Below, in pieces: positions 6,657 through 44,100 of a stretch of DNA of 64,000 nucleotides. This DNA comes from Gavia stellata. Taxonomy: Eukaryota > Chordata > Aves > Gaviiformes > Gaviidae. The stretch is from NCBI RefSeq assembly GCF_030936135.1, contig NC_082613.1:4216001-4280000 (forward strand). Direction: 5' to 3'. Positions within the stretch are counted from its first letter, which is position 1, and each line of letters begins with the position of its first letter. The notes under the pieces are model-generated. The model was given only the letters and a program-made list of their open reading frames with translations, had not been told where the DNA came from and ran no database searches. The position numbers and the translations under genes are program-made.

Positions 6657-7190
6657 GGAGACGCAGGGATGTTCCTGTGGGGACTGCAAGAATACTCTGG
6701 GAGGATTCGAGGATGGTCCCGGGTTGAGGGGGAGGGAGGAATATAGGGATGCTCTGGGGTAATGCAGGGATGCTCATGGGTTGAGAGGGAAGGAGGAATC
6801 TAGGGATGCTCTGGGGTAATGCAGGGATGCTCACGGGTTGAGAGGGGACGGGGGAATGTAGGGATGCTCTGGGGTAATGCAGGGATGCTCACAGGTTGAG
6901 AGGGAAGGAGGAATCTAGGGATGCTCTGGGGTAATGCAGGGATGCTCACGGGTTGAGAGGGGACGGGGGAATGTAGGGATGCTCTGGGGTAATGCAGGGA
7001 TGCTCACGGGTTGAGGGGGAGGGAGGAATCTAGGGATGCTCTGGGGTAACGCAGGGATGCTCCTGGGTTGAGAGGGGACGGGGGAATGTAGGGATGCTCT
7101 GGGGGATGCAGGGTTGGGGGGGGGGGGTGTGCAAGGATGCTGGGAGGGATTCGGGGTTGCTCGGGGGGGACGCGGGGATGCTGGGGGCCG
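6657..7190. repeat. GC-rich minisatellite, 57/58-bp units in 115-bp dimers
   Basis: The motif TAGGGATGCTCTGGGG recurs at 6744, 6801, 6859, 6916, 6974, 7031 and 7089. The intervals are 57, 58, 57, 58, 57 and 58 bases. The alternation reflects two unit types: one carries GGGAAGGAGGAATC (or a close variant) and the other GGGGACGGGGGAATG, so the true period is a 115-bp dimer. More degenerate units extend the array left to about 6657 and right to about 7190. The array ends roughly 120 bases before the HRH3 start codon. The G-rich strand is the HRH3 sense strand. A long minus-strand open frame across it (Ser-Ile-Pro-Ala-Leu-Pro repeats) is produced by the repeat and is not a gene. Confidence 0.92.
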
Positions 7191-7219
7191 GAGTGCCGGT
7201 CCCGCCGGCCGCGGGGCAG

Positions 7220-7305
7220 CGCGGGGCTGCGGCCCCCGGAGGGGCGGGGAGGCGGGGCGGGCCGGGGCGGGGCGGCAGCCCCGCGGCTGCAGCGCGGCGC
7301 GGGCC
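7220..7305 (+). promoter_or_regulatory. HRH3 GC-box proximal promoter / 5' leader
   Basis: Several GGGGCGGGG / GGGCGGG Sp1-type boxes lie between about 7237 and 7275, and there is no TATA box. The stretch is extremely CpG-rich and ends in GCGGGCC directly before the ATG, giving a good start context. A TATA-less CpG promoter is expected for this receptor. The exact transcription start cannot be read from the sequence. Confidence 0.55.
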
Positions 7306-9952
7306 ATGGAGAGCGGCGGGGCGCTGAACGGCTCCGCCGCCGCCGCCGGGCGCTTCGCCGCCGCCGGTACGGCGGCGCTGGGCGCGCTGATGGCCCTGCT
7401 GATCGCCGTCATCGTGGCCGGCAACGCGCTGGTGATGCTGGCCTTCGTGGCGGACTCCAGCCTGCGCACCCAGAACAACTTCTTCCTCCTCAACCTGGCC
7501 ATCTCGGATTTCCTAGTAGGTAAAGTGCCGTCCCCCCGCGCGGCTCCGCGCCCGCCGAGCCGCGGCCCGGCCCGGCAGCAACTCCGCGGCGGGGCGGGCA
7601 GCGCGCACCCGGCGGGGCGGGCAGGGGCCCCCGGGCGGCCGCCTGCTCTGGGGCCCCCCGCCGGCGTGCCCGGGGTCCCCTCCGGCGGTGCCCCGCTCCT
7701 GCCCCCCGACACCCTCCCGCAGCCCCCGGGGTCCCCTCCCGACATCCCCCGGCTGCTCCCCCCGGCCGGGCGGGCGGGGAGAGCCGAGCGGCGGCCGCGG
7801 ACGGCCGCGGGGGTCTTGCGGGGAGAGCAAGAGCCCGCATACCCCCTCTGCCACTACAGCTTCAGAAGAGCTTTTACTGAACTCCTCTGTCCCAAGGAGC
7901 CGGCCCGGCGCCTGCGGCTCCCCCGGGGAGCAGCCACCGTGCAGACCCCGCGGCCCACTGCCGACGGACCCCTCTGGTTGCAGGTGCCTTCTGCATTCCC
8001 CTGTACGTGCCCTATGTGCTGACGGGGAGATGGATCTTCGGGAGAAGCCTCTGCAAACTCTGGCTGGTAGTTGACTACCTGCTCTGCACCTCGTCTGTCT
8101 TCAACATCGTACTGATTAGCTATGACAGGTTCCTCTCGGTGACAAGAGCGGTGAGTCCTGTCATGGCAGCTGAGAGGGGAAGAACTCTTCTGCTGCTTTA
8201 TTCTCCAGGTTCTCTGCAATAATTAAAAGCTCTTTGATTCCTCCAGAAATTATGAATCTTTCAGCCTGGTGATGGAAAGCAATAATTATCCACAAATACC
8301 TAATTCAGCTGCGGTTTCAGATTAGTATTTCTGGCGTAATTAAATCATTTAAGGTTCAGACCCCATTGTGCAGGTGTTCCCTTCCCAGATGACAGGATAG
8401 TAGTGTACAAGTGAGTCAGCGAGGTGAGCAGACCTATTACTAACTTGCAGGGGCTTATTATCTCCAGGACAAACAAGCAGATTGCAGTCGGACTGCCAGC
8501 TTCTCCCTGGCTACCGAGGCAGTAGACTGCAGTACCAACTTCGGCACGGCACTGCCCTGAGGTCTCTGGGTACGCGGTGAGATGAAAACGCTCAGCCTTT
8601 TGCAGAAGGTAACGAGCAATTCACAGACGGATCAGATCCGTGGCTGTTTGCTTGTTCCCTGACTCCAAATACACCATGGATTAGGTACAAGGCTCAGAGA
8701 GGCAGAGCTAGATGCCTGCCCAGCCCCGGAGCCTGAGGCATGCCTCTCCCCGGGAGCTGCAGAGTAGCTGGGGACAACTCAGGCAAGTGGTGGGGTGCGG
8801 CAGACTGCCGGGCTCCAACCCAGTCAGTACATTTCCACCAAGCAGATGCCACGTCTGGTTTTGGAGCTGTAAGATGAGGATTCTAAGTCTTCCCTGCAGG
8901 AGTGTGATTTATCTAGCAATTGCTCCTGTTGGCTATGGCATATGAATCTGTTAGACTGCTGGGATATTGCCTAGCAACTTTACCAGGAACACTGACGGTT
9001 CCTTTGTGAAGAGCCTCCACCAGTTGGGGTGCGTGGCCATACTTAAGAAAAGGTTTCCCCGTTGCAGGTCGCCTACAGAGCCCAGCAAGGCAACACCAAG
9101 CAAGCGGTGCTGAAGATGGTGATGGTATGGGTATTAGCATTCCTGCTTTATGGACCTGCCATTATCAGCTGGGAGTATGTATCAGGCCAGAGTATCATAC
9201 CCACCGGGGAATGCTATGCTGAGTTTTTCTACAACTGGTATTTTCTCATGACAGCCTCTACGCTGGAGTTTTTCACCCCTTTCATCAGCGTAATGTTTTT
9301 CAACCTGAGCATTTACCTGAACATACAGAAGCGTACCAAAATACGCCTGGATATTTTCCATGAAGTGCACAACCAGTCCTTCACTGAAGAGATGGAAACG
9401 AGCCCAGAAGCAAAGTTTTCTTTGAAGTGTTGTAAGTGGGAGCAGAAGGAGCCAGCTGAAACCCTTGACCTCTCTAAGAGCAAAGCTCAAGCAGCAGCCT
9501 CCACTGCCAGCCTGGGTGCCAAAGACCCGCTGTCAACAAGCTCCGAGAGCTCCGGGAAACCCAAGTGTTGCAACAAAAAGAGTTGTAAAAATTCAGCATC
9601 CACGCTGTCCTTAGAGAAACGGATGAAGATAGTGTCCCAGAGCATGACTCAACGCTTCAGGCTCTCTAGAGACAAGAAAGTGGCCAAATCCCTGGCAATC
9701 ATCGTGGGCATTTTTGGGATTTGCTGGGCACCGTACACTCTCCTGATGATCATCCGCGCTGGCTGCCATGGCCACTGCATCTCTGACTACTGGTACGAGA
9801 CTTCCTTTTGGCTGCTGTGGATCAACTCGGCCGTCAACCCTGTCCTATACCCTCTCTGCCACTACAGCTTCAGAAGAGCTTTTATTAAACTCCTCTGTCC
9901 CAGGAAGCTAAAGATTCAACCTCACGATTCCCTTCAGAACTGCTGGAAGTGA
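7306..9952 (+). CDS. HRH3: Histamine H3 receptor (three coding exons)
   Basis: This is a class A GPCR of neurons that senses histamine and couples to Gi/o, acting as auto- and heteroreceptor. Coding exons are 7306-7519, 7984-8150 and 9068-9952. All junctions have GT/AG ends and matching phase, giving 421 aa. Visible hallmarks are N-glycosylation site NGS near the N-terminus, TM1 GNALVML, amine-binding Asp102 in LWLVVDY, the DRF variant of DRY at 119-121, Cys95-Cys176 for the extracellular disulfide, Glu194 in TM5 for the imidazole, CWAPY in TM6 and NPVLY in TM7. The tail ends in LQNCWK, close to mammalian H3 (human ends LEHCWK). The third loop holds two CC clusters. H4 is excluded because the TM2-TM3 and TM5 blocks follow H3 almost residue for residue. 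Intron 1 carries an odd copy of exon 3, listed separately. Confidence 0.96.
7839..7900 (+). repeat. Near-copy of HRH3 exon 3 segment inside HRH3 intron 1
   Basis: This 62-base stretch matches 9847-9908 in exon 3 at 57 of 62 positions with no gaps. All five differences are transitions. The exon 3 counterpart encodes the end of TM7 and helix 8, reading YPLCHYSFRRAF. The copy is in the same orientation and the same reading frame as exon 1 and keeps YPLCHYSFRRAF unchanged, followed by TELLCPKE where exon 3 has IKLLCPRK. Similarity stops sharply at both ends. The stretch also holds a pyrimidine-rich tract ending in ACAG that resembles a splice acceptor. It is most simply a micro-duplication or gene-conversion product; use as an exon is not shown. 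Confidence 0.9.
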
Positions 9953-20860: not shown

Positions 20861-23053
20861 GTATGGAAGACAAACAGAAGAAAACAAAGCTGTTCTTTAA
20901 AGGCCAGGCACACATCAACGTTGGGATGAAATTTAGCAGTATCAGCGTGAAGGTTTAACTTATATCAAACTCATTTTCACAATGGTGATGACCTTCATTA
21001 TTAACAGAAGTGGTCCAAACCCAAAATATAACTTTCACAGAAACAATAGGGCTGTACACTTATTGAAGAGATGCTGAGCTCCAAACTTACCTATTTTCCC
21101 CACACACACTGTGCCAGACAAAAATCTCCAGATTATGGGCTACGGTGTCCCCAAAAATAAGAGCTCCCAAAGTAAAGGTAATCTTGCTACTAGTAAAAAG
21201 TCCATTTTTACACAACAATGATATTCGTAAAAAGATTAAGCCAAAGCATATATTCATTGTCTTTTAATTTCCATTGCAGAGTTAACAGTTCAAACAACAC
21301 ATTAGCATTCCAGCAGCCTGTCTGGTCCCTATTTATGTCCACCTGCCATTCAATTAATAACTCATTAAGTTGCACACCTCCAACACACCTAACCTCTGGT
21401 CCCAACATTAACCTTACATTACCAGTGTCGGCCAATGAGCCCAGTTAGCAATATCCTGTGGAAGACAAGACAGCAAAGAAGTCACATTGGTGTTCTGTAC
21501 CCAGCAGCTTGTACAAACGTGTGGAAACTACAGCAAGGTCCCGTTCTACCAGCAACAGCATCTCTGGTTCACAGCCATTCCTGCAATTCTGTAATTTCAA
21601 TCAATATTTAAAAAACAACAGGTTACGAGTTCTTAAACGTGTTCAAGTCAGAGTACCTACTCACTTACCACAAATTTACTTAAAAATAAAAATCACTATG
21701 AAGAAGCTTAGTAAATACACAATAGTGAAAGAAATTTTCCTTGCAACGGAAAAAGAAACCGAGACCTGACACTTCTGGCAGCCTTCACTTTCCATTGCAT
21801 TCGAGCAACTGGTGACCTCCCACTACTTTAATATCACAACTCTAAGCACACATATTATCAGAATGAATACAGGCAAACATGACAGCATCTGGTGTCACGT
21901 CCTGCATCTCCTGCCCCTTGCCGAGACCCCGAGCAGTGCTATCTGCACAGCCTCCCCAGTACTGGAAGCAGGGCGGTGGCAGGCGTTGCTCTCCTCCCAG
22001 AATGATGCTGCAGCAGAGCAGAACCACTGAGTGCAAGTTCAGCAAGGGTCTCACTTTTATGGCTGTTGGTTCAATTCATTGCAAACACATTCTTATTCAC
22101 CTTAAAAAATATTAAGTAATACCAAAAAAAAAGTACTTAACAAAACCGTGTAAGTAAAGCAGACTGCAAAATGTACCATGCTTAAACACACTGATTCAAT
22201 GTTTTATTTAAGGTACTACAATGAGTCCTCAATATCCGTGTGTTTGAAAAGTGTGGTCCTTTTTAATGCTTGTCTTTGCATTAGCATTTCATTTTCTTTT
22301 TCTGTTCAATTGATACCACCTACACTTTCCAAGAACCTACAAAGTGGGAGAGGATTGCAAATAAATATAAAAACACAATTAGCACTAAAATGCTTTGGCA
22401 GTCAGGTACTAAAAAAATGTATTCAGAAGATGAGTACTAGGACTGTAAAGTGCTAAACAAAATTATGGCTCAAGCTTCTCCAGGAAATATAAAATAGACT
22501 GGACTTTAATTCACATTAAAATAAGGCTCATTGTTGGAATGAGAAATAAAATCCCCCACCTCTTTCCTCTTGTCAACTTGAAAATCAAGGACAACATCAA
22601 CGGTTTCAGCAAAGGAAAGCAAAAGCTAGTTAAGGAAAGTGATGCAGAAGAATGCCACCAAAACATCTCCAAAACCTAAACCAAAACAAGCCTGTCCACC
22701 CCAACCACAAAAACAGTGGGAAGAAATCCTATAGCACATAATTTTTCTCTAAAACAATTCATCATTCTCTCTTAACCTGAATATTTTTTCTTCTCTGTTC
22801 CTAGACGTAAAATGAGTTTCCTTTGTAAATATCTTCTTCTCAGCAGAACCAGAGATTACTCCTCAGTTCTGTACCTCATAATTAGAATGGGACGCAAGAG
22901 ATCTTCGTGCTAAAACTGAAGGAGCACTATGGAGAAATGTGACTAAGCTATTAACTCATTATCGTGCTGAGCAGCACACAGCCACTCCTTTTGTTTGGCA
23001 TTAACTTAGGGACCTCTAGCATGAGGTTACTTTGTTTGGTATACATGTATATT

Positions 23054-23222
23054 CACAGAATCACAGAATCATTAAGGTTGGAAAAGACCTGGAAGATCAA
23101 GTCCAACCATCAGCCAACCCCACCATGCCCACTAACCCATGTCCTGCAGTGCCACGTCCACACGTTCCTTGAACACCTCCAGTGATGGTGACTCCACCAC
23201 CTCCCTGGGCAGCCTCTTCCAA
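23054..23222 (-). mobile_element. CR1 LINE 3' end, truncated
   Basis: The minus-strand 3' tail of chicken repeat 1 is seen as CACAGAATCACAGAATC, followed by AAGGTTGGAAAAGACCT, AAGTCCAACCATCAGCC, CCACCATGCCCACTAA and CACCTCCCTGGGCAGCC. The repeated 8-bp CACAGAAT end is the typical CR1 terminus. About 170 bases remain, with the usual severe 5' truncation. It lies in the HRH3-MTG2 intergenic gap, about 2.6 kb beyond the MTG2 stop codon. Confidence 0.9.
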
Positions 23223-25828: not shown

Positions 25829-28800
25829 CTACCACTTGAGCGGGCTTTGCCCTCGTGATTGTTCCGTCTTCACGTAAGTGTCATAGAGTTCCCTCAAATG
25901 CAACAACAGTTCCTCTAGGTTGTCTCCCGTCAATGCAGACAATGCAATGACCCGATCGTCTATCTGTTCTCTAAGGAGTGGCAGACTGATCCTGGACTGA
26001 GCAAGGTCAATCTTATTCCCAATGACAACACAAGGCCTCTCGGACAATCCTTTTTTATATTGTTCCAGTTCATATTTTAAGTCTTGCAGCTGAATCCATG
26101 GCTGAGACACAGAGAGATCCACCACATATAAGAGAAAGTGGCAGCGTTCAATATGCCTTAGGAAGGCCATTCCGAGGCCCCTGTTTTGATGAGCACCTTT
26201 TATTAGGCCAGGAATGTCAGCAACTACAATAAGAGAAATTTCACAGTGAATCAAACATATCCAACAAAAAAAAACCCCAAAACACAACACAGGCTTCTAC
26301 TGGCCAGCGCAAGTACTTTTAGAATTACATCTCAATGCATTAACATTAAAGCATACCTCATGTTAAGTTTGGCTGCTATTATCTTTTAAAACCCCTAAAT
26401 GTAGATTATTCCAGTAGAGGCAGAATACAGACTGCTAGTTTGATACCAGGGGCACATATAAGTGAATGTGAAATGGGCTTTCAGTATTGTTTTGTTTGAA
26501 GTTCTTTAGAACTAGCAAGAATTCTACAGGACTGCTAACTTACTTCTGCAGCATTTCAAAGAATAATGCAGGTGACACAAATTGCTATCAAGGTACACAC
26601 AACGTACTACAACTCTTACCTGCTACTTGTTCATAGTCTTGATAGCGGACAATGCCAACGTGGGGATTTAGGGTTGTGAATGGGTAGGCAGCCACTGCTG
26701 GCTTTGCGCTGGAGATTGCTCTCAAAAGTGATGATTTGCCAGCATTAGGAAAGCCCACCTGGAATACAAATGCTTTTTAAAGCCCCAGTTCCAGGTTAAT
26801 CCCGATAAAAAAAACCCAAACTGTAAGCTTTTGCTCATGTGGCAAGCATGAATGTAACAACATTAATTTTGTGTACTTAGTTCTGAAAAGCATCCCGGTT
26901 TCCCTTTTTTGTTTCTCCTAAATCCTATTTATATGCGTATTTTCTTATAAACATTAAACAGATCAAATGTAAAAGGGTCCCCTTAACTTTTTTTGGGCCA
27001 TCTCAAGTATTTACTTTGTTCAGAGCCAAAAGGATATATACCATAACATCTCTTTTACCCTGGAATAATGTTATGACACTTTGCCCTGCACTTCCCATTT
27101 TATCTGTGTTTCCTAACTCTTGATTTATTATTTTCTAAAATAATTCAGAATTGGCTTTGTCCCTGACTCAGTTAACGTAGTTTGGCCTATAGGTAACCAG
27201 AACGTCTGCAAGTTTGGCATTTTCATAGTCTCGTCATCAAAGAATTAAATTAAAACTTGGCCTTCAGGGGAGAAGGCAAGAATTTAAACAAACCTATCCC
27301 AGAAATGAAGTTACTCTGGGATATCCTATAGTTGACATACCATAGCTACACAGACGGTCAATAATCCCCAGATCAAAGTAGATCAAATCCTAAATTCTCC
27401 TATTTGCTGATGTCACACACTCTGAATTCTTGAGGAAGTGAAGTACAGGACAGATTCATCTCAGATTTCCAGATTAGGGCCAAAAATGTAAGAAGTGGAC
27501 CAGAGTGTCCAGCTGGTCAGAGAATTAAGTGTATTGATCCACCAATGCCAACTCTTCTCTTAGTCTCTAAATAAATTCTGCTAGACCAGACAGTTATTCT
27601 GCAGTTGTTGAACTACAGCAAGAACTCTTTGCAGCAAAGCATGATTTGAACAGCTTTACCAGCTGGTGTTAAAACATTTCCATACTTAAAAATGAAAACT
27701 ACTTAAGCCCTAAATTGACTTAGCATTCATGTCTAAATAGTATTTTGATTTCAGAGGACACTAAACCTGGAACTAACACAGTGTTATGTTTAATATCTGT
27801 AAAAAGAGAAATATAGGGATGAAATAGAGGGTGATTTGAACTTTTATCAGTTTTGTTTTTTTTAAAAACCATGAAAACAGAAATTAATTTAGAAGAACTC
27901 TCCATACTGTACTGTTCATCTGCAGAACCGGCAGACAAAGCCTGCTGTACATCATCAGTGAGTCTGTTAATCACTGATGAATCTTGCACATTGCTTTTCT
28001 ATATATAGTGTTGACTCCAGCGAAAGCAGGGTGACATCAAGTAGCAAGAGAGTGACAGCTCTGCAAATCACTTTGGACACCCTTCTACCAAGTAACAGCA
28101 AGAAAGCATTGAGTTCCATCTCTAAACAAGTATGGCAAAAGGCTAACAAAAATGTTATCAAACATTATTTCTTCAGTCAGTCAAGTGTCATCCTACAACG
28201 ATAAGGAAGTTGAAGAACCACAGCGACACTCACCAATCCTGCATGAGCTGTTGTCTTGAGTTCCAGATGGAGGACCCTTTCCTGACCTGGCTCTCCTGGC
28301 GTAAATAATGTTGGAGCTCGGTTTTCATTGGAAAGAAAAAAGCGATTACCTTTCCCTCCAGCCCCTCCATAAGCTGCAACATACTCTTCACCATGTTGAG
28401 TGAGGTCAGCCACAACTTTCCCATCCTCCTTAACCAATGTACCTACAGGGACCTTAAAGCGAAGAGAGATGCAAGCATTACAGTGAAGCTCAAAGTCTGC
28501 AGCAGAGCTGTCTTCAGCAGATCCTTTACCAGCTGATTTAGGATTTGTTGAAAATCACTCCTCCATATTCTCAAGCTGAGGAATCCAAAAAGAGAAGCGT
28601 ACTTCATGATGCTTGCTTTCTGGACCCAAACAGCACTGTCAGACATTTGCACTTCATAAAAACGTTAACAGTAGCATATGCCTCTTTCTCTCTTTTATGC
28701 AAAGAAGCCTAAGCACAATAGTGAGCTAAGAAACATATTGTAGGTGTACACCAAAAGAGGCATGTTGAAGAACAAAAAAAGTACGAAAGAAAAGAGTCTG

Positions 28801-31800
28801 TTCCTATTTAAGAAGTTTGTGTTCTGATTGCTCTAGGTGCATGACCCCTAGAAGTAAAGCAAATCAGAACCATATTGGTTTTGGCCAGATATACCTTCCA
28901 AAGAAGTCTGATTTTTATAAACAATTTAAAGCAGCTTGATCTGCCTGCATGCCACCCAGTCCTGTCTCAGCAGAGACAGCACACAAGGCTCCCTGAAAAA
29001 ACGCACATGAGATTTTCTCACAATAAGGTCATCCAGCTTGAAAATCAGCAATGTTAATACAAAGCTAACACACTAGCATGCAACCTTAATTTACTTACTT
29101 TAACATACAGGTATGCACCGTTAGCTCCATAACAGTTTTTGCTTCCTCCTCTCTCTCCATGAAAACCCTGATAGAATGGGAGGACCGAAGAAAGTGATTT
29201 CATTTGACGGTCAGCTGTAAAGCAAAATACGCATATTTTAAACACATTGTTTTACTAGAACAGGCACAGAAGAGCAACCTCTTGACTGTTCTTTCCCTTT
29301 CTGAATACTGCATGAATGCATATCCTATTTACTGTCTCAACAATAACGTATCAGTGAAGACTAAGATTAATGTAAGTTGTGACGAAGTTTAACAGTCTTT
29401 ACTTACCTGCTTAGGTTTATTAACTGTGCATTTTATTATGTGGTCATTCCAAAATCAACCATTACAAAATACTCTGGAAAATTCATTTGCTAGATTAGCA
29501 GATTTTGCAGCAGGGTGGTAGCAGAAGCAGCTTTATCCATCCTAAGAGTAAAATTACTCTTAAGAGTGGCACCAGCCACTAAAACGTCTGCAAAATATCT
29601 CGATTTTCAAAATGCTTTCTAAGGCTGTCTGTGTCATTTATGTCCCTGTTACCACAGCTCATGACAAAGCTTAAAAAACAAAGGCATCTTATACAGAAAT
29701 AACCATTTTAACATTTTTGACAGTTACATTTACCAGCTCCCACCATACAAACAGTGTGTTTCTGGGCTGTTTTTTCAGGAGGTGGGGGGATGGTGGTGTT
29801 AAGCAATAAGACAACATGAAAAAACACAGATTTAGTGAGTTTTACCTTTCAAAATGACATGACCGCCATCACCTCCATTTCCACCATCAGGACCTCCAAA
29901 TATTTTTCTGGGTTCACTATAAAAAGAATGACCTCCTCCTCCTCCTTGTCCTCCAACCACACGCACCTTCCGGTGATCCACGAAATAGCGTGTCTGTAAC
30001 AAGGATGGGTTTTGTACCCTTTAAGTACAGTTTATCAGTGTCATCTTCCAAAAAGTTGATTGTTCTGCAAAACGTAGTAATATGCAGATCTGCTATTTTT
30101 AGTTATGATGAGTTCCATTCAACAGTAAAAAAAAAAAATCAGAACTCTGCTGCCATTCACAGATCAATTAAATACAGCATACTAAGTATAATAACAAAGA
30201 AAAATAATCTCATTTTTCAAGTATTTTTAAGAATACCCTTAAAAGTACATGCCCGCGGCTATGTTGATATAACCTAATGCAGCAGTTCAGATACCAAAAG
30301 TACAAAATTCATGTTAAGGGAACTAATAACAGGAAAAGTATCTTTTTAATACAGTTATATAATGCTGACAAGTAGCTCAAGAGAGCTACCACACTATAAA
30401 ACAAAATCACCCAGTAATTGTGTCCCTACTCATGAAAACAAAAATTTAAAAAACTGTATACATAAACTTTTTACTCTTTAAATGGAACTGAAATTTGCAA
30501 AAAGGACATAGTGCATGTGTGGGAGGGATATTCTCACACTGATTCACTGCTTTCCAAACCAGGTGATGAAATTAAGGCAAACTTCAATCTAACAATCAAG
30601 AAAAGTATTTCAGATATAGAAAGTATTTACAAACAGAATAAGCAGAGGAAATCTCAATATAAGCCACAACCAGTTGCTCAGGGGATAAAAAAAAGATATA
30701 GTGTAAAAAGAATCACAGATCTTGTCCCTATTTCTGACATGAACTTAATATTTGACTTCTGGCAAACTAATTATGCTGCACTATGTTTCAGCTTTTCTGT
30801 CAGCAAACTGGGTAAGTATCATCAAACCTATCTCCAGGAAGTGGGCTAAAATCCCCAAGGGAAAGTATTAGAGAAGTACATTCATACAGGTAGGTGAAAT
30901 TGTTTATGTGTCAGAATGAAAAGAGAAAGCATGACCTTGATTGTGGTACATTCAAATTCTGTCAGTTACTAAGGGACTTCATAATGAGAATGAGCAATAA
31001 GAGCCACTTTAATTAAATAGCCCAAACAGTATGCGAGGGAGAAAAAGTCTTAGCAGTATTATGATACCAAGATAAGCAACTGAAAAAAACCCCTAACTCT
31101 TAATAATTAAAGTGATACTATCATCACTGATTTCTTAAAAAGCCTCTTTGAGGAAAGTATTTGGCACCACCACACGGTGAGACAGGAAACTATTGCTTTA
31201 AATGGGGAGTGATTTACTGATTAATAACAGAAAAAGAATATGAAGAAAACATTCTGTGACCCTCCAGTTTCTCTGACATAAAATGCTGTCTGTTTGGCAA
31301 CTAACTACTATGCAAGACTATAAAAACGGTGAGAAAAAAAAAACAGTATTTCAGCTTTAAAGCTACGTAGGACTTTCTGCTTTCTCGACCTATGCAGGCT
31401 TTCAGCCCAAGAGGTGCTGCGGCTGAAGGCACGCTTACCGCTACCGCAACCCCTCTGAACACCCATAATGTCACAGAATCACAGAATCACTAAGGTTGGA
31501 AAAGACCTGTAAGATCATCAAGTCCAACCACCAAATCACATGGCAGACTTGCTTCCTCACTATTCACAAAGTTAGTCAGATTTTAGAAACATGGTCCCTC
31601 ACATCAAGAGCATGTATTTGATCCCTGTGAGGAGAAAATGGCAAGGAACAGGTAAGCTCCGTTTTCTGACGCGTGCCTGGGAGGTGACGGCCCAGCAAGG
31701 TAACTGCACTGCACACTAACAGCTGATTTACTCTAGAACTTACCAATTTCCTTTCCGAAATGACTCTTTTTTGCCTCAGTCGCCTGTTCTTTGAACACCT

Positions 31801-38100: not shown

Positions 38101-41100
38101 ACTGATATCCTGGAAGTCTTTTCTCTTACTGCAAAAAAAAGTTAAATATTCATAGCTATAATTCCACCTGGCTCAGCTACAGCTGAGGATCATTTTTCTA
38201 ATGAATATGAGGCCATGCACAAGTTGTTAGCGATCCCACAAGACTGCCTCACAATACAGCTACTGACATGATACTGTGTATACAGTCTGATACAGTCTCA
38301 GTATAAAAAATGCTATGCATAGCTAAATTCTATTTCCTGGACACTCCTTAAGTAATGGCTAAGTAGCAGTTAGTGATGCAGAAACTGCAAGTTGTATTTT
38401 ACATTTTCATAAGCATTTCATTAGTGTTTTAGGAGTTAGACCTTTGGTTTACAAAGATTGCCAATATATTTCCCTACCTCCTTCATAATAGTGTTGTGTA
38501 GAGTCGTCAAATGACCTGTCATAGCTCTGCTCGGTATACGATGACTGCTGATAGGCATAATCACCATGTCCTACAAGGAATTGCAAAGATTTATCAGATA
38601 AATTGTTAATATAATGAGCGAGATATTGTTGAAAATATATATTATGAAGCTGCTTATGCACAAAGATGAGGCTAAGAGGAAATACAGACCCCTTAGATAG
38701 GAGGTCGAATACACGGCAAGGGAACTCACACCTATTGATAAATCTCTTGCATTCACTAATGCAAACTTGGCTTTGTGCTCTTTTTGAAGCAGTTTGTGTA
38801 ACAGGGTGCACTGATGCATATGTTTGTGTACCAGGCTCCCGTCCCCTGGGATTAGAATTTACTAGCATCTGAATTGGAAATGAACCATAATGGGTTTGCC
38901 ATGTCCTTGGATGTGGCAGTCATGCTGGTCTAGACTTTAGCAGTATTACAGTGACGACAGCTCAGAGGAATTACCATCTGGATAGTATTGCTGATTCATA
39001 GGTTCTGATGAGCCTTGTCCATGACTGTACTGTTCACTGTAATATTCTTCCTGACCCATGTATTGCTGCGAGGAACCTGCAAGGCAAAGGCAAGAGAGAG
39101 CAAACTGAGCCTGTGGACTCCTAAGGGATGTTTTATTCTTCTCTAATTTATTTTTAAGAAAACAGCATTTACGTCTGGATAAGTAAACAAGCTTATGTAT
39201 GTTGAGAGCAGTTTCAAAGATATTTTGCTCACTAGAAAAAGGAAATTTGTATTCTCAGAAAAATCTGGCTGAAATTGAAATTCTGTAACTGTCAGTAACG
39301 TCCTAAACCCACTCACTTCTGTGGCAATACTGAAAGTAATGGCTACATTTTGTCTACTAATCTGAGTTATTAGAAAGCATGGGAATATATTCCATGCTCA
39401 AGAACACAGTCAGAATTAAATATATTTTAATTAATGTATTAATTTGCTTCTTAGCAAAATTCAGTTCATACTGCAATCACTCTACCAGCTTTATTACCTC
39501 TTAGAACTTTTTCCAGAGAGGTCTTGGAGCATGGTAGTTACCCTCTGGTGTTTTCCTTGCCTTGGCCTAATTTTTCATATTAATTGCTGGCAAAGTATAT
39601 CTTCTTTGCACAAATGCATTCCTCGTTAACTGTGCCATGTTACAGCTGATCCAATACCATTTGAAAGAAATGAAAAGATTCCCAGTGGCTTGAGTGAGCT
39701 GTGTATCAAATTGTTCATCTTTTCTTTAGAGAGATATGATCCCTTTTAGACAGAATTATTTTTCTAAACACCTGAAATGATTAAATAGCTAAATCTTGAA
39801 AACAGATTGAAGTTTATCTGATTGTCATGATACTTCCACCATTTGAGATTTCCTGTGTTCCCAGATGGGATTCCCTGTTCATAAATGTGACTTGGAAATT
39901 TTTTTGACTTACCTACCCCACAGGACAGACTGAAGATCACCAATCTAATAATAATTAGATCAATAATCTAATAATAGATTTTACCTTGCTGTGAAGCTCT
40001 GTAAGGGCCCATTGGTCGCTGACCCATCATGCTGTTGCCTTGGTTGCTCTGACTCATCATGGCAATGGAGGACTGCCCCTGGTAATGCTGGCTCCCTCCT
40101 TGTGCTGAGTTGTAATGTGACGTTGCTGCTTGCTGGTGCATCATGGAGACTACAATGTACATGGAAAATACTGTTTTCTAAAAGGATGTGACAGTTCTCT
40201 CCCTAGTCTCTTTGGAAGCAAGTTAAAACCTTCAACTAACAGGCATCCTGATAATTCTGTGAATTTTCCACAGGGGGAGATGTTTTCCTACTACATGTAT
40301 TTAACTCTTCTGCACTGTAATCCAGAAAGGATGTTATTACATGGTCAGTTCTTGCCATTTGCTTCAGTCAGATATTTAAAAACACATCTACCCTTGATTA
40401 TTATTAGTTTATTTAAAAGAATGTAATCATTATTACAGTAGGATTAAAGAAAGAAATAAGAACTGATGCTTGTTCCTCTCCACCTCTTGACTAATTAATT
40501 CATTGCTGCATTTCTTTTCTAATCAACTCTTTCTTCTACTTCCATCTTATTATATACTTGATGATTATACAGTTTAAATAAGCTGACATTCTAGGATTTA
40601 TTTTATCCCTGAATTTCATATTGTTGGAAAGAATTCTTCAGCATTGGACATCCCATTCAATACTCAGTAGCAAACATTTTTACAAATGAAGATATTAACT
40701 CCGAGTTGTCTGTTAGTCTCTCTATGCCCTGCAAGCAGTGTGAAGTATCAATAAAATAACAAAAATAGGATAGTAATGTACAAACAGTAAATGTGTAATA
40801 CTCTTTGGCAGGCTCTTTCAGCTAGGATAAAGGGCCTTCTCAGATCCCTCCCACGGTTGTGGGATTTGCTGCCAAGGGCTATCAGATAGTGCTGCTGCAC
40901 TTGTAGCTAACCCTCCTTTCCCCAACTCATTGCTACCCATAGCAAGTCGGTGAATAGTAAGCATAGTAAGTGAAAGCCAGTCTGAAACTGTTCCAACTTA
41001 CACTGGTGCCTGACACCTTGAAATTCAGAGATGTCTTAAAGCTGTCTTTTCCTCTTGTATGTTTGTCGCTGTCTACAGAAAATATTTACTGAACAAATTC

Positions 41101-44100
41101 ATGTGTGGTAAACCTCTGAGGTCACTGAAAAGTCAAGCTGGCCCAGAAGGAGGAAGAGGGAGTTTACCTGGATTAGACTGCATGTTGATGTTTGTTCGAG
41201 AGACATAATTGCCTATTGACCCCTGGCCTTGCATTGGCACATTCTGAGATGCAGGCACTGTATGGCTATAACCAGGCCCAGTTCCATGACTGCTGACAGT
41301 CATACTCAGAGAGGTCGTGGGCATAGTGTTCTGGCCTGACTGCTGCATAGACACGTGATTAGGACCTAGAAAAATTAAAGAGAGCAACAAGAAAATCTGT
41401 GCTATTATTGGCAACGTACAGTGAGCATTAAAGCCCTCGCGGCCTTTCTAAAATACCTTACAATAAGGCAAAACAAAACAAAACAAAAGAAATTCTCATT
41501 ATTAAAAATTTCCTGTTATCTACAAATTAAAACTGCCTACTGCACAGTTAGAGTGATCCTCCTCCTGGCAGCCAGGTTCAGGCTGTACAGAATTGCAGAC
41601 AGGAAGAACAAAACCAGAAGCAATGCCCTACAACCAGTTCCTCACAGGCAGCCAGTAATTTCAGATACTTCAGAAAATACATGGACTCTGGAAACATCCC
41701 AGCCTTCTGAAATTTGTCCTTTCCTTCCTCCTGTCCTGCTGTTGACTCCTCTTCCCCCTTCATGCAGATGGTGACAATGGGAAGGCACAGTAGTGGCTGA
41801 GAAACACTTTGCACATTGCTGTATCCATTCGGTTCCTTTACAAGCAACTAACCTTCTTAGCTGGGGCTTAGGAAGTACCAAGGGACCCTCTCCTCAGAGG
41901 ACAAGCCTGTCTCTCCCTTTCCTGACATTTGACTGAAAGTACCTCAGACTTTTGGACGATAAATTTTCCAAGTCACCTTCGTAATCTCTGTTGTTACGGT
42001 ACTCCCTGTCCAACATCACCATACGTAATTAGCAGACTGCTCCAATTATATCCTGGGTTTGTATCATCCTGCTTACCTGGCAGTATGCTTATTTTTAAAA
42101 ATTCTATTACTGTTGGGCAACTAAAATTGGGGAGAATCTGGTCCTTATTTTTTGTTGTTTGTTGCTGTACATACTTTTATGAATGAGTTTTGGAAAGTTG
42201 TTTTCATTGTGTATTGTTCCTGTCTAAATTGTGATAGTGTGTATTGTTGTCTATCTAAATTCAGCTGTATTGTCAATCTAGATTAATTTAGATAGAATGG
42301 AAGACATGCAGAATCCCTAGAAGAGACAGAATTATGTTGTAATGTTTAGGTAATGATATTTTAATTCACAGTTATTAAGTGTATCTACAGCCTCTGAATA
42401 ATGTGTCTAATTCTCCTAGTATAAAGCTCATTAATTACTCTTAATGGTTTTTATAGACATCAAAATGAGAAAATTTGCTGTAGATTATTATATTTTCCTC
42501 GGATGGAGAGATGCAAGCAACATTTTCAACAAGCGATAAGGAGAGCCAGCTCTACTGAAATCAGTGGAGCCAGGTCAATATACCACTACAGAGATCTAGC
42601 CCTGTGTTTTGCTACAGTTTTGCATGTCTCATAAAGCTGATACTTCTACTTGAGCAACACAAGACCACATGGTGTTTGAAGGGAGCTAGCAGTTGCTTTG
42701 AGTGAGAGATGGAGTGATGCAAGTGTTGGTAAACCTTGCTGTATTTGCATGGGAAAACTTAAAGAATCCTGGCCTTCTTTAAAGAAAAAAAAAAAAAAAA
42801 AGTTTGACTAATTTGTGATTGTAAGGGAAAATATGAAAGCATCACCAAAAGTGTTTAAATAAAAACACTAAAACAGTAAGATAAATACAAAGCATTTAAC
42901 CTCTTTCATACTTTTATGAATCTAAGGCAGTTGCGTTTTTCTTTGAAAGGCCTCATTCATGATATCTGAACAGTTAAAATTCTCAGTTGGGCCCAATTCT
43001 GTCCGGAGGCAGCTGAGTTTCACTGGTTGGTGTATTGAATCTAATGGGTTTGCCTGCAGGGCTGTGGCATGAAGAATCACGGACTTGTGAATGGTGGATT
43101 ACTGGAAATCTCAGTGGGTTGGTTTTTAACTTGTCCCCATCAAGACAATTATCATTACAATTAACCTGGCTGCCACTATGGAGGGTTATCATGTATGTAG
43201 GGAATTACCTAGTTACTGTCCTGCAGAAGTGATTCCTGTAAAGTCCTGACTGAGGACAATAAAGACTAAAATGTAGTAGCTTCTATGTCTTCTTCCCTGT
43301 TCTTCCCTCTTTTACAATGCTGTACATGTTCATTACAGACTTTCATCTCTATTGCCATTAGATGAGAAACTTACACAAGTACTAGAGCCCATATATTTGA
43401 ATTGTTTATGCATATTTATTCCTAATTTCCAAAAAAATGCTGTCCAACAATTGTTGACCAACGTGAAATAATTCCTCAGTCTCAAAGTCTATCTGCACAT
43501 CAAGACTGCTGTGTCATATAGCATCATTGTGCTAACTTGATTCTAGCTGGCACAGAGGCAGTAGCAGTAGAGACTGGCGACCAAGGGGAGTGTCCCCAAG
43601 CCCAAGGATGTGAGGGTCGTATTCTTACAGCGGGCGCTAGCAGCAGAGCACATGCCATCAATGCTGCTGTTACCTCGGCTGCTCAGAAGAGGCAAGCAAC
43701 TACATTCTCAAGTCACACCTTCGTTCTGACGTGTAGCTATGTCCTCAGTCTAGTTTCCAGTGGCCTGGTATTTTCATGATGAAATACCTGGCACTACCCA
43801 GGTGACAGTCTCAGTGACTGGGCAGAGAGCGAACTACCCTGAGACCCCCAAAACTCGGGCTGGGTTTTAGTACTGGGTTGGGGCAACATGAGGTTAACTG
43901 CCCTGGCTGCTTCTGTTCTGCGGATGACTCGAGTCTTCAGGACTGCCAGCCTGGTTCTTTCAATCAGCACTAAATTATTATAAAGAACTGGAGGGTCGGG
44001 GCAAATAAGAAAACCCAGCAATAATAACACTGAAAATGTAGATTCTTAGTAACACAAAACAATGTTTTGACTGACTTATTACAATACTTATACTAGGTAA

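Follow-up and report, generated by a model that had tools for sequence, protein, structure and literature searches.

Short pieces of DNA copied from another place in the same genome have been described in several systems. At human meiotic break hotspots, insertions bear the marks of both template switching and theta-mediated joining, variant sizes show an excess within the resection range of about 2 kb, and microhomology accompanies 84% of the deletions and 94% of the duplications shorter than 2 kb, with medians of 10 and 15 bp, respectively (PMC7615360, in part). Insertions in rad27-deleted yeast have a median length of 88 bp, about 40% of them being under 50 bp (PMC11724301, in part), and the class 2 templated sequence insertions (TSIPs) of humans lack a poly-A tract and a target-site duplication of 5 bp or more, with end-joining marks such as microdeletions, microhomology, or added bases at their junctions, RNA templates having been argued for (PMC5110952, in part). 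Here, we describe a piece of this kind in the bird Gavia stellata, in which a stretch of exon 3 of the histamine H3 receptor gene reappears within intron 1 of the same gene. It belongs to an already known mutation class, that of templated insertions. A narrow literature search found no paper on exon duplication in bird HRH3 introns, and we make no claim of absence beyond that search.

The window, i.e., the whole stretch of 64,000 nucleotides that was analyzed, contains a three-exon gene on the plus strand (Table 1). Judged by its sequence, this gene is HRH3, exon 3 having as its best PDB match the human H3 receptor (8yuu, E value of 2e-126). The rebuilt gene model codes for a product of 421 aa; with an alternative exon 1 donor, 9 bases farther on, the product would have 424 aa, and we preferred the better-scoring donor, which omits the three extra residues. 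Downstream lie a GTP1/OBG-family GTPase, what we take to be the C terminus of an SS18L1-like protein (38449-38919, minus strand), for which a Pfam search of the frame gave no match, and PSMA7, an arrangement that we assume to reproduce the gene order of human 20q13.33. Searches of the window with Rfam (at the gathering threshold) and ARAGORN found no match and no tRNA, respectively. A CpG island, delimited with 200-base windows of GC ≥ 0.55 and CpG observed/expected ≥ 0.65, extends from the promoter side over exon 1 and intron 1, and the listing of G4-type patterns found many of them within it. Without the copy, the GC content of intron 1 rises to 84.1%. Directly upstream of exon 1, within G-rich DNA, there is a minisatellite (6711-7113) made of a 57-base unit inside a 115-base higher-order unit, with 94% matches.

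Table 1. Features of the HRH3 locus and its neighbors (positions in the window)
Feature	Position	Strand	Basis
CpG island with G4-type motifs, from the promoter side through intron 1	~7021..8000	.	Window scan
HRH3 exon 1, coding part	7306..7519	+	Gene model; Pfam 7tm_1, residues 39-71, 30.0 bits (curated cut-off of 30.5 narrowly missed)
HRH3 intron 1, host of the copy, 464 nt	7520..7983	+	GT..AG, phase 1, 79.7% GC
Copy of the source segment, 62 bp, in intron 1	7839..7900	+	57/62 ungapped to 9847-9908; E 4.2e-18
Splice-acceptor-like stretch in the copy (pyrimidine-rich tract and AG 7858-7859)	7840..7859	+	Rough matrix, 4.48
HRH3 exon 2	7984..8150	+	Gene model; Pfam 7tm_1, 50.6 bits
HRH3 intron 2	8151-9067	+	Gene model
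HRH3 exon 3, coding part, stop codon at 9950-9952	9068..9952	+	Gene model; PDB human H3, E 2e-126; Pfam 7tm_1, 85.2 bits
Source segment in exon 3	9847..9908	+	Translation YPLCHYSFRRAFIKLLCPRK, aligned to human H3
GTP1/OBG-family GTPase, MTG2-like by position	25829-28554	-	Pfam
PSMA7	51865 onward	+	Neighbor gene

The preliminary description of this DNA had pointed to a near-copy of exon 3 within intron 1, and our analysis bears it out as a real duplication, gapless, on the same strand, and with abrupt edges on both sides. The two segments start 2008 bases apart and were paired both by BLAST of the window against itself (90.6 bits) and by a repeat finder; the source segment presumably encodes the end of TM7 and helix 8 of the receptor. 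The resemblance is not due to chance: 1000 mononucleotide-shuffled versions of the intron, compared on the plus strand with the HRH3 coding sequence (at a word size other than that of the self-BLAST), reached at most 40.1 bits. When the 1.32-Gb assembly was searched with positions 7800-7960, only two places were returned, the copy itself and exon 3, and the query including the intron flanks found a full-length match at one place only. We accordingly discarded an interspersed repeat as the nature of the copy, with the proviso that this search omits very common words, which makes its repeat counts lower bounds.

We consider it likely that the copy is a small templated insertion, in which about 62 bases of exon 3 were patched into a break or stalled fork in intron 1, and that it is most likely nonfunctional. 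The event would have begun in an ancestor's germline, when the CpG-island, G4-rich intron 1 suffered a double-strand break or a stalled fork. The damage would have been repaired with a patch templated by exon 3, 2 kb farther down the gene, and keeping the orientation of its source; template switching, end joining of the polymerase-theta type, and synthesis-dependent repair are the candidate routes. Once joined in, the patch would have diverged with no visible sign that its coding content was under selection. We infer in this way the break, the polymerase step, the fixation, and the neutrality of the insertion. The ungapped match of 57 out of 62 bases, the abrupt ends, the shared strand, and exon 3 as the sole relative returned all support a templated insertion.

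The sequence was also read directly for marks of retrotransposition, and neither the copy nor the bases that follow it hold a poly-A tract or an AATAAA signal. Of the direct repeats in its flanks, the best, CAAGAGCCCGC / CAAGGAGCCGGC, is gapped and includes an exact 5-mer (GAGCC), but an equally good one appeared in 7200 of 20000 random pairs drawn from the intron, and in 5622 of 20000 draws when the left flank was fixed (draws fewer than 25 bases apart were skipped and scored as misses). Random pairs in this GC-rich intron thus do as well, and we rejected this repeat as evidence of a target-site duplication. Without poly-A and with a nonsignificant flanking repeat, an insertion of the LINE type is not supported; a processed pseudogene or LINE retrocopy (class 1) was rejected, the copy being an internal piece of 62 bp that ends before the stop codon.

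No microhomology is visible in the bases immediately outside the match, although priming homology may hide inside it. At the human hotspots, microhomology is the rule, and its absence from the flanks counts against local copying during repair. The distance of 2,008 bases to the donor may in turn be compared with the resection range of about 2 kb, an analogy drawn from variant size only. In the zebra finch, crossovers within 100 bp of CpG islands amount to 23.7% versus 17.5% expected, a modest enrichment (PMC12047795, in part). Considering the hotspot data on template switching, the position in a CpG island, and the distance to the donor, local copying during the repair of a germline break or fork is the route that we favor.

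The patch could instead have been made from HRH3 RNA, as a short reverse-transcribed piece, or from another loose fragment, for instance an Okazaki flap, caught at the break. The source is exon sequence inserted in the sense orientation, with neither poly-A nor significant target-site duplication, just as in the class 2 insertions for which RNA templates were proposed, and a cDNA origin fits a piece lying within one exon equally well. However, the piece crosses no splice junction and hence bears no mark of RNA, and a donor in the same gene, only 2 kb away, favors a local DNA template, whereas the experimental insertions reported in PMC5110952 (in part) came from distant regions. On balance, we regard a patch of this origin as unlikely.

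From exon to copy, the five differences are T>C, T>C, A>G, G>A, and A>G, all of them transitions and four of them placing G or C in the copy, exactly as first described. Five transitions out of five have a probability of 0.13 to 0.33 at transition/transversion ratios of 2 to 4. The excess toward GC had been read as what biased gene conversion would produce, a proposal not supported in that form: four out of five changes toward GC give P=0.19, no more than two of the four are assignable to the copy, and with five changes such a bias is not demonstrable. Among the 20 codons lying wholly within the match (the 21st crosses its edge and is left out of the comparison), 15 agree; of the other 5, one differs synonymously (CCC in the copy and CCT in the exon) and four differ nonsynonymously (copy/exon, Thr/Ile, Glu/Lys, Lys/Arg, and Glu/Lys). 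The two right-most differences are at most six bases from the edge, where the match might partly be a coincidence.

The human H3 receptor, a very distant relative and the only outgroup used for ancestral states, reads AFTKLLCPQK over this segment. It agrees with the copy at two of the four amino acid differences, namely, the Thr (ACT in the copy and ATT, for Ile, in exon 3, confirming the initial reading of this codon) and the middle A of the codon that is Gln in human and Lys in the copy, a scoring based on the fact that any Gln codon has a middle A. At the other two it agrees with the exon (Lys in both). By parsimony against this outgroup, both Glu codons look derived in the copy, while the Thr and Lys-codon sites look like changes in exon 3; the synonymous difference is left unassigned. 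The earlier suggestion that the copy preserves an older state is hence plausible at two sites, but at two others it is the copy that appears derived.

The five differences also allow a rough dating. Assuming 1.9e-9 substitutions per site per year, and an exon that changes 0.3 times as fast as neutral sequence, the event would be about 33 My old, with a 95% Poisson range of 11 to 76 My. A pedigree-based rate of 2.0e-9 has been reported for the zebra finch (PMC12047795, in part). Alternative rates of 1.5e-9 to 4e-9 widen the range to 4 to 97 My. At 1.9e-9, the probability of five or fewer differences is 0.006 for an age of 90 My and 0.044 for 70 My; at 1.0e-9, these values become 0.27 and 0.50, and neither age is excluded. 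The copy is probably old.

It seems quite improbable that the copy is functional, whether by giving rise to a truncated receptor as an alternative or decoy 3' splice site of intron 1 or by forming part of a retained-intron reading frame. In its favor, the copy brings the highest-scoring AG among those at 7545-7983 (4.48, the true acceptor at 7983 scoring 1.68), and the frame of exon 1 is open through intron 1, so that the copy is read in its native frame. Over positions 7340-9949, this AG ranks fifth of 188, one place behind its exon 3 original at 9867, but the scoring matrix is a rough one and ranks the two true acceptors only 20th (7983) and 25th (9067). Since the matrix ranks true acceptors so poorly, the acceptor-like site is only a lead. 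With a rough matrix, the three downstream GTs of the intron score -11.4, -6.4, and -5.7, whereas the true donors reach 2.47 and 4.88; without a good donor after the copy a cassette exon is unlikely, and we dropped the idea of a duplicated (alternative) exon despite the acceptor-like site. Use of the acceptor would lead to a frameshifted product of 142 residues ending in exon 2. As for the open frame, a given frame is free of stops in 27% of mononucleotide-shuffled introns, and the native one is one of three. Four of the five codon differences change the amino acid, and a Pfam search of the copy's frame up to the end of the intron gave no match at E values up to 0.001. The copy is thus most likely without function. 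Even more doubtful is that the insertion endowed intron 1 with a strong rival 3' splice site, derived from TM7-coding sequence, that shunts some of the HRH3 pre-mRNA to a truncated nonsignaling form; were it so, a single repair event would have created a lineage-specific brake on H3 receptor dosage.

That the copy might be what remains recognizable of a larger duplication of exon 3 is very hard to sustain: the stretch does encode a conserved part of the receptor, but its ends are abrupt, with no fading, and the rest would have to vanish without a trace inside an intron of 464 nt. An assembly chimera can practically be dismissed because an artificial duplicate should be identical to its source rather than carry five scattered transitions, and the flanked query matched in full at one place only.

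How often such pieces occur nearby can be roughly gauged from the other repeats of the region. BLAST of the window against itself gave eight pairs: five inside the minisatellite at 6.7-7.1 kb, the HRH3 copy, a weak palindrome at 42250, and a pair of short related elements at 23053-23112 and 31471-31533. Both of these elements hold CACAGAATCACAGAATCA, and we assume them to resemble the ends of bird CR1 elements. Extending the self-comparison to 264 kb (the window and 100 kb on each side) at an E value of 1e-6 yielded 27 nonself rows and, at spacings of 200 bases or more, 9 pairs. Requiring few other matches left two of these nine (the HRH3 copy and a pair of 561 bp) and removed seven. A more sensitive scan of the same 264 kb in 10-kb tiles, blind to pairs separated by more than a tile, found eight pairs at least 150 bases apart, made up of four in laminin-EGF-like repeats (identified by eye), one minisatellite pair, the 561-bp pair, a 31-bp pair, and the HRH3 copy.

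The 561-bp pair is a dispersed direct repeat, 96% identical and with 37% GC (C20:4183474-4184034 and 4189704-4190259, 5.7 kb apart), with few or no further matches at 1e-6 within the 264 kb. The 31-base pair (C20:4306971-4307001 and 4308368-4308398) is exon-like, with 30 of 31 bases identical on the same strand at a distance of 1.4 kb; its downstream partner is at the start of a long open frame, presumably that of a TAF4-like gene. Neither pair is tandem or an evident domain repeat, and both are only candidates, so there would be up to three dispersed local copies in this quarter megabase, the HRH3 copy included. Pairs with an exon as a partner stay recognizable for longer, and counts of this type therefore favor exon donors.

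Fragments of exons fossilized in introns of the same gene could serve as markers by which local template copying in the germline of birds can be dated, and they may hold frozen states of the exon for comparison with the living one. The HRH3 copy is a single example of a known mutation class; a wider count in birds would provide the rate at which such patches arise.

Compared with the systems described so far, the short-range template switches of great apes (PMC7954356, in part) have in common with the HRH3 copy a small, local copying event seen in evolution, but the model put forward there produces reverse-complement copies within about 100 bases, whereas the HRH3 copy is on the same strand and 2 kb away. 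The insertions at meiotic break hotspots (PMC7615360, in part) share a probably recombination-prone site and a donor at roughly the resection distance (about 2 kb); they are human polymorphisms in known hotspots, with a median microhomology of 15 bp in the duplications under 2 kb, while the HRH3 copy has none visible and its break and hotspot are deduced. Class 2 TSIPs (PMC5110952, in part) differ in their distant donors, that of the HRH3 copy being local, within the same gene, and in their size, 73 to 414 bp in the experimental set against 62 bp here, in a copy known from one assembly. What they share with it is a short copied piece, the need for a germline event, the lack of a poly-A tract or cryptic poly-A signal, and an intact donor: the copy and exon 3 are both present, and no third place was returned.
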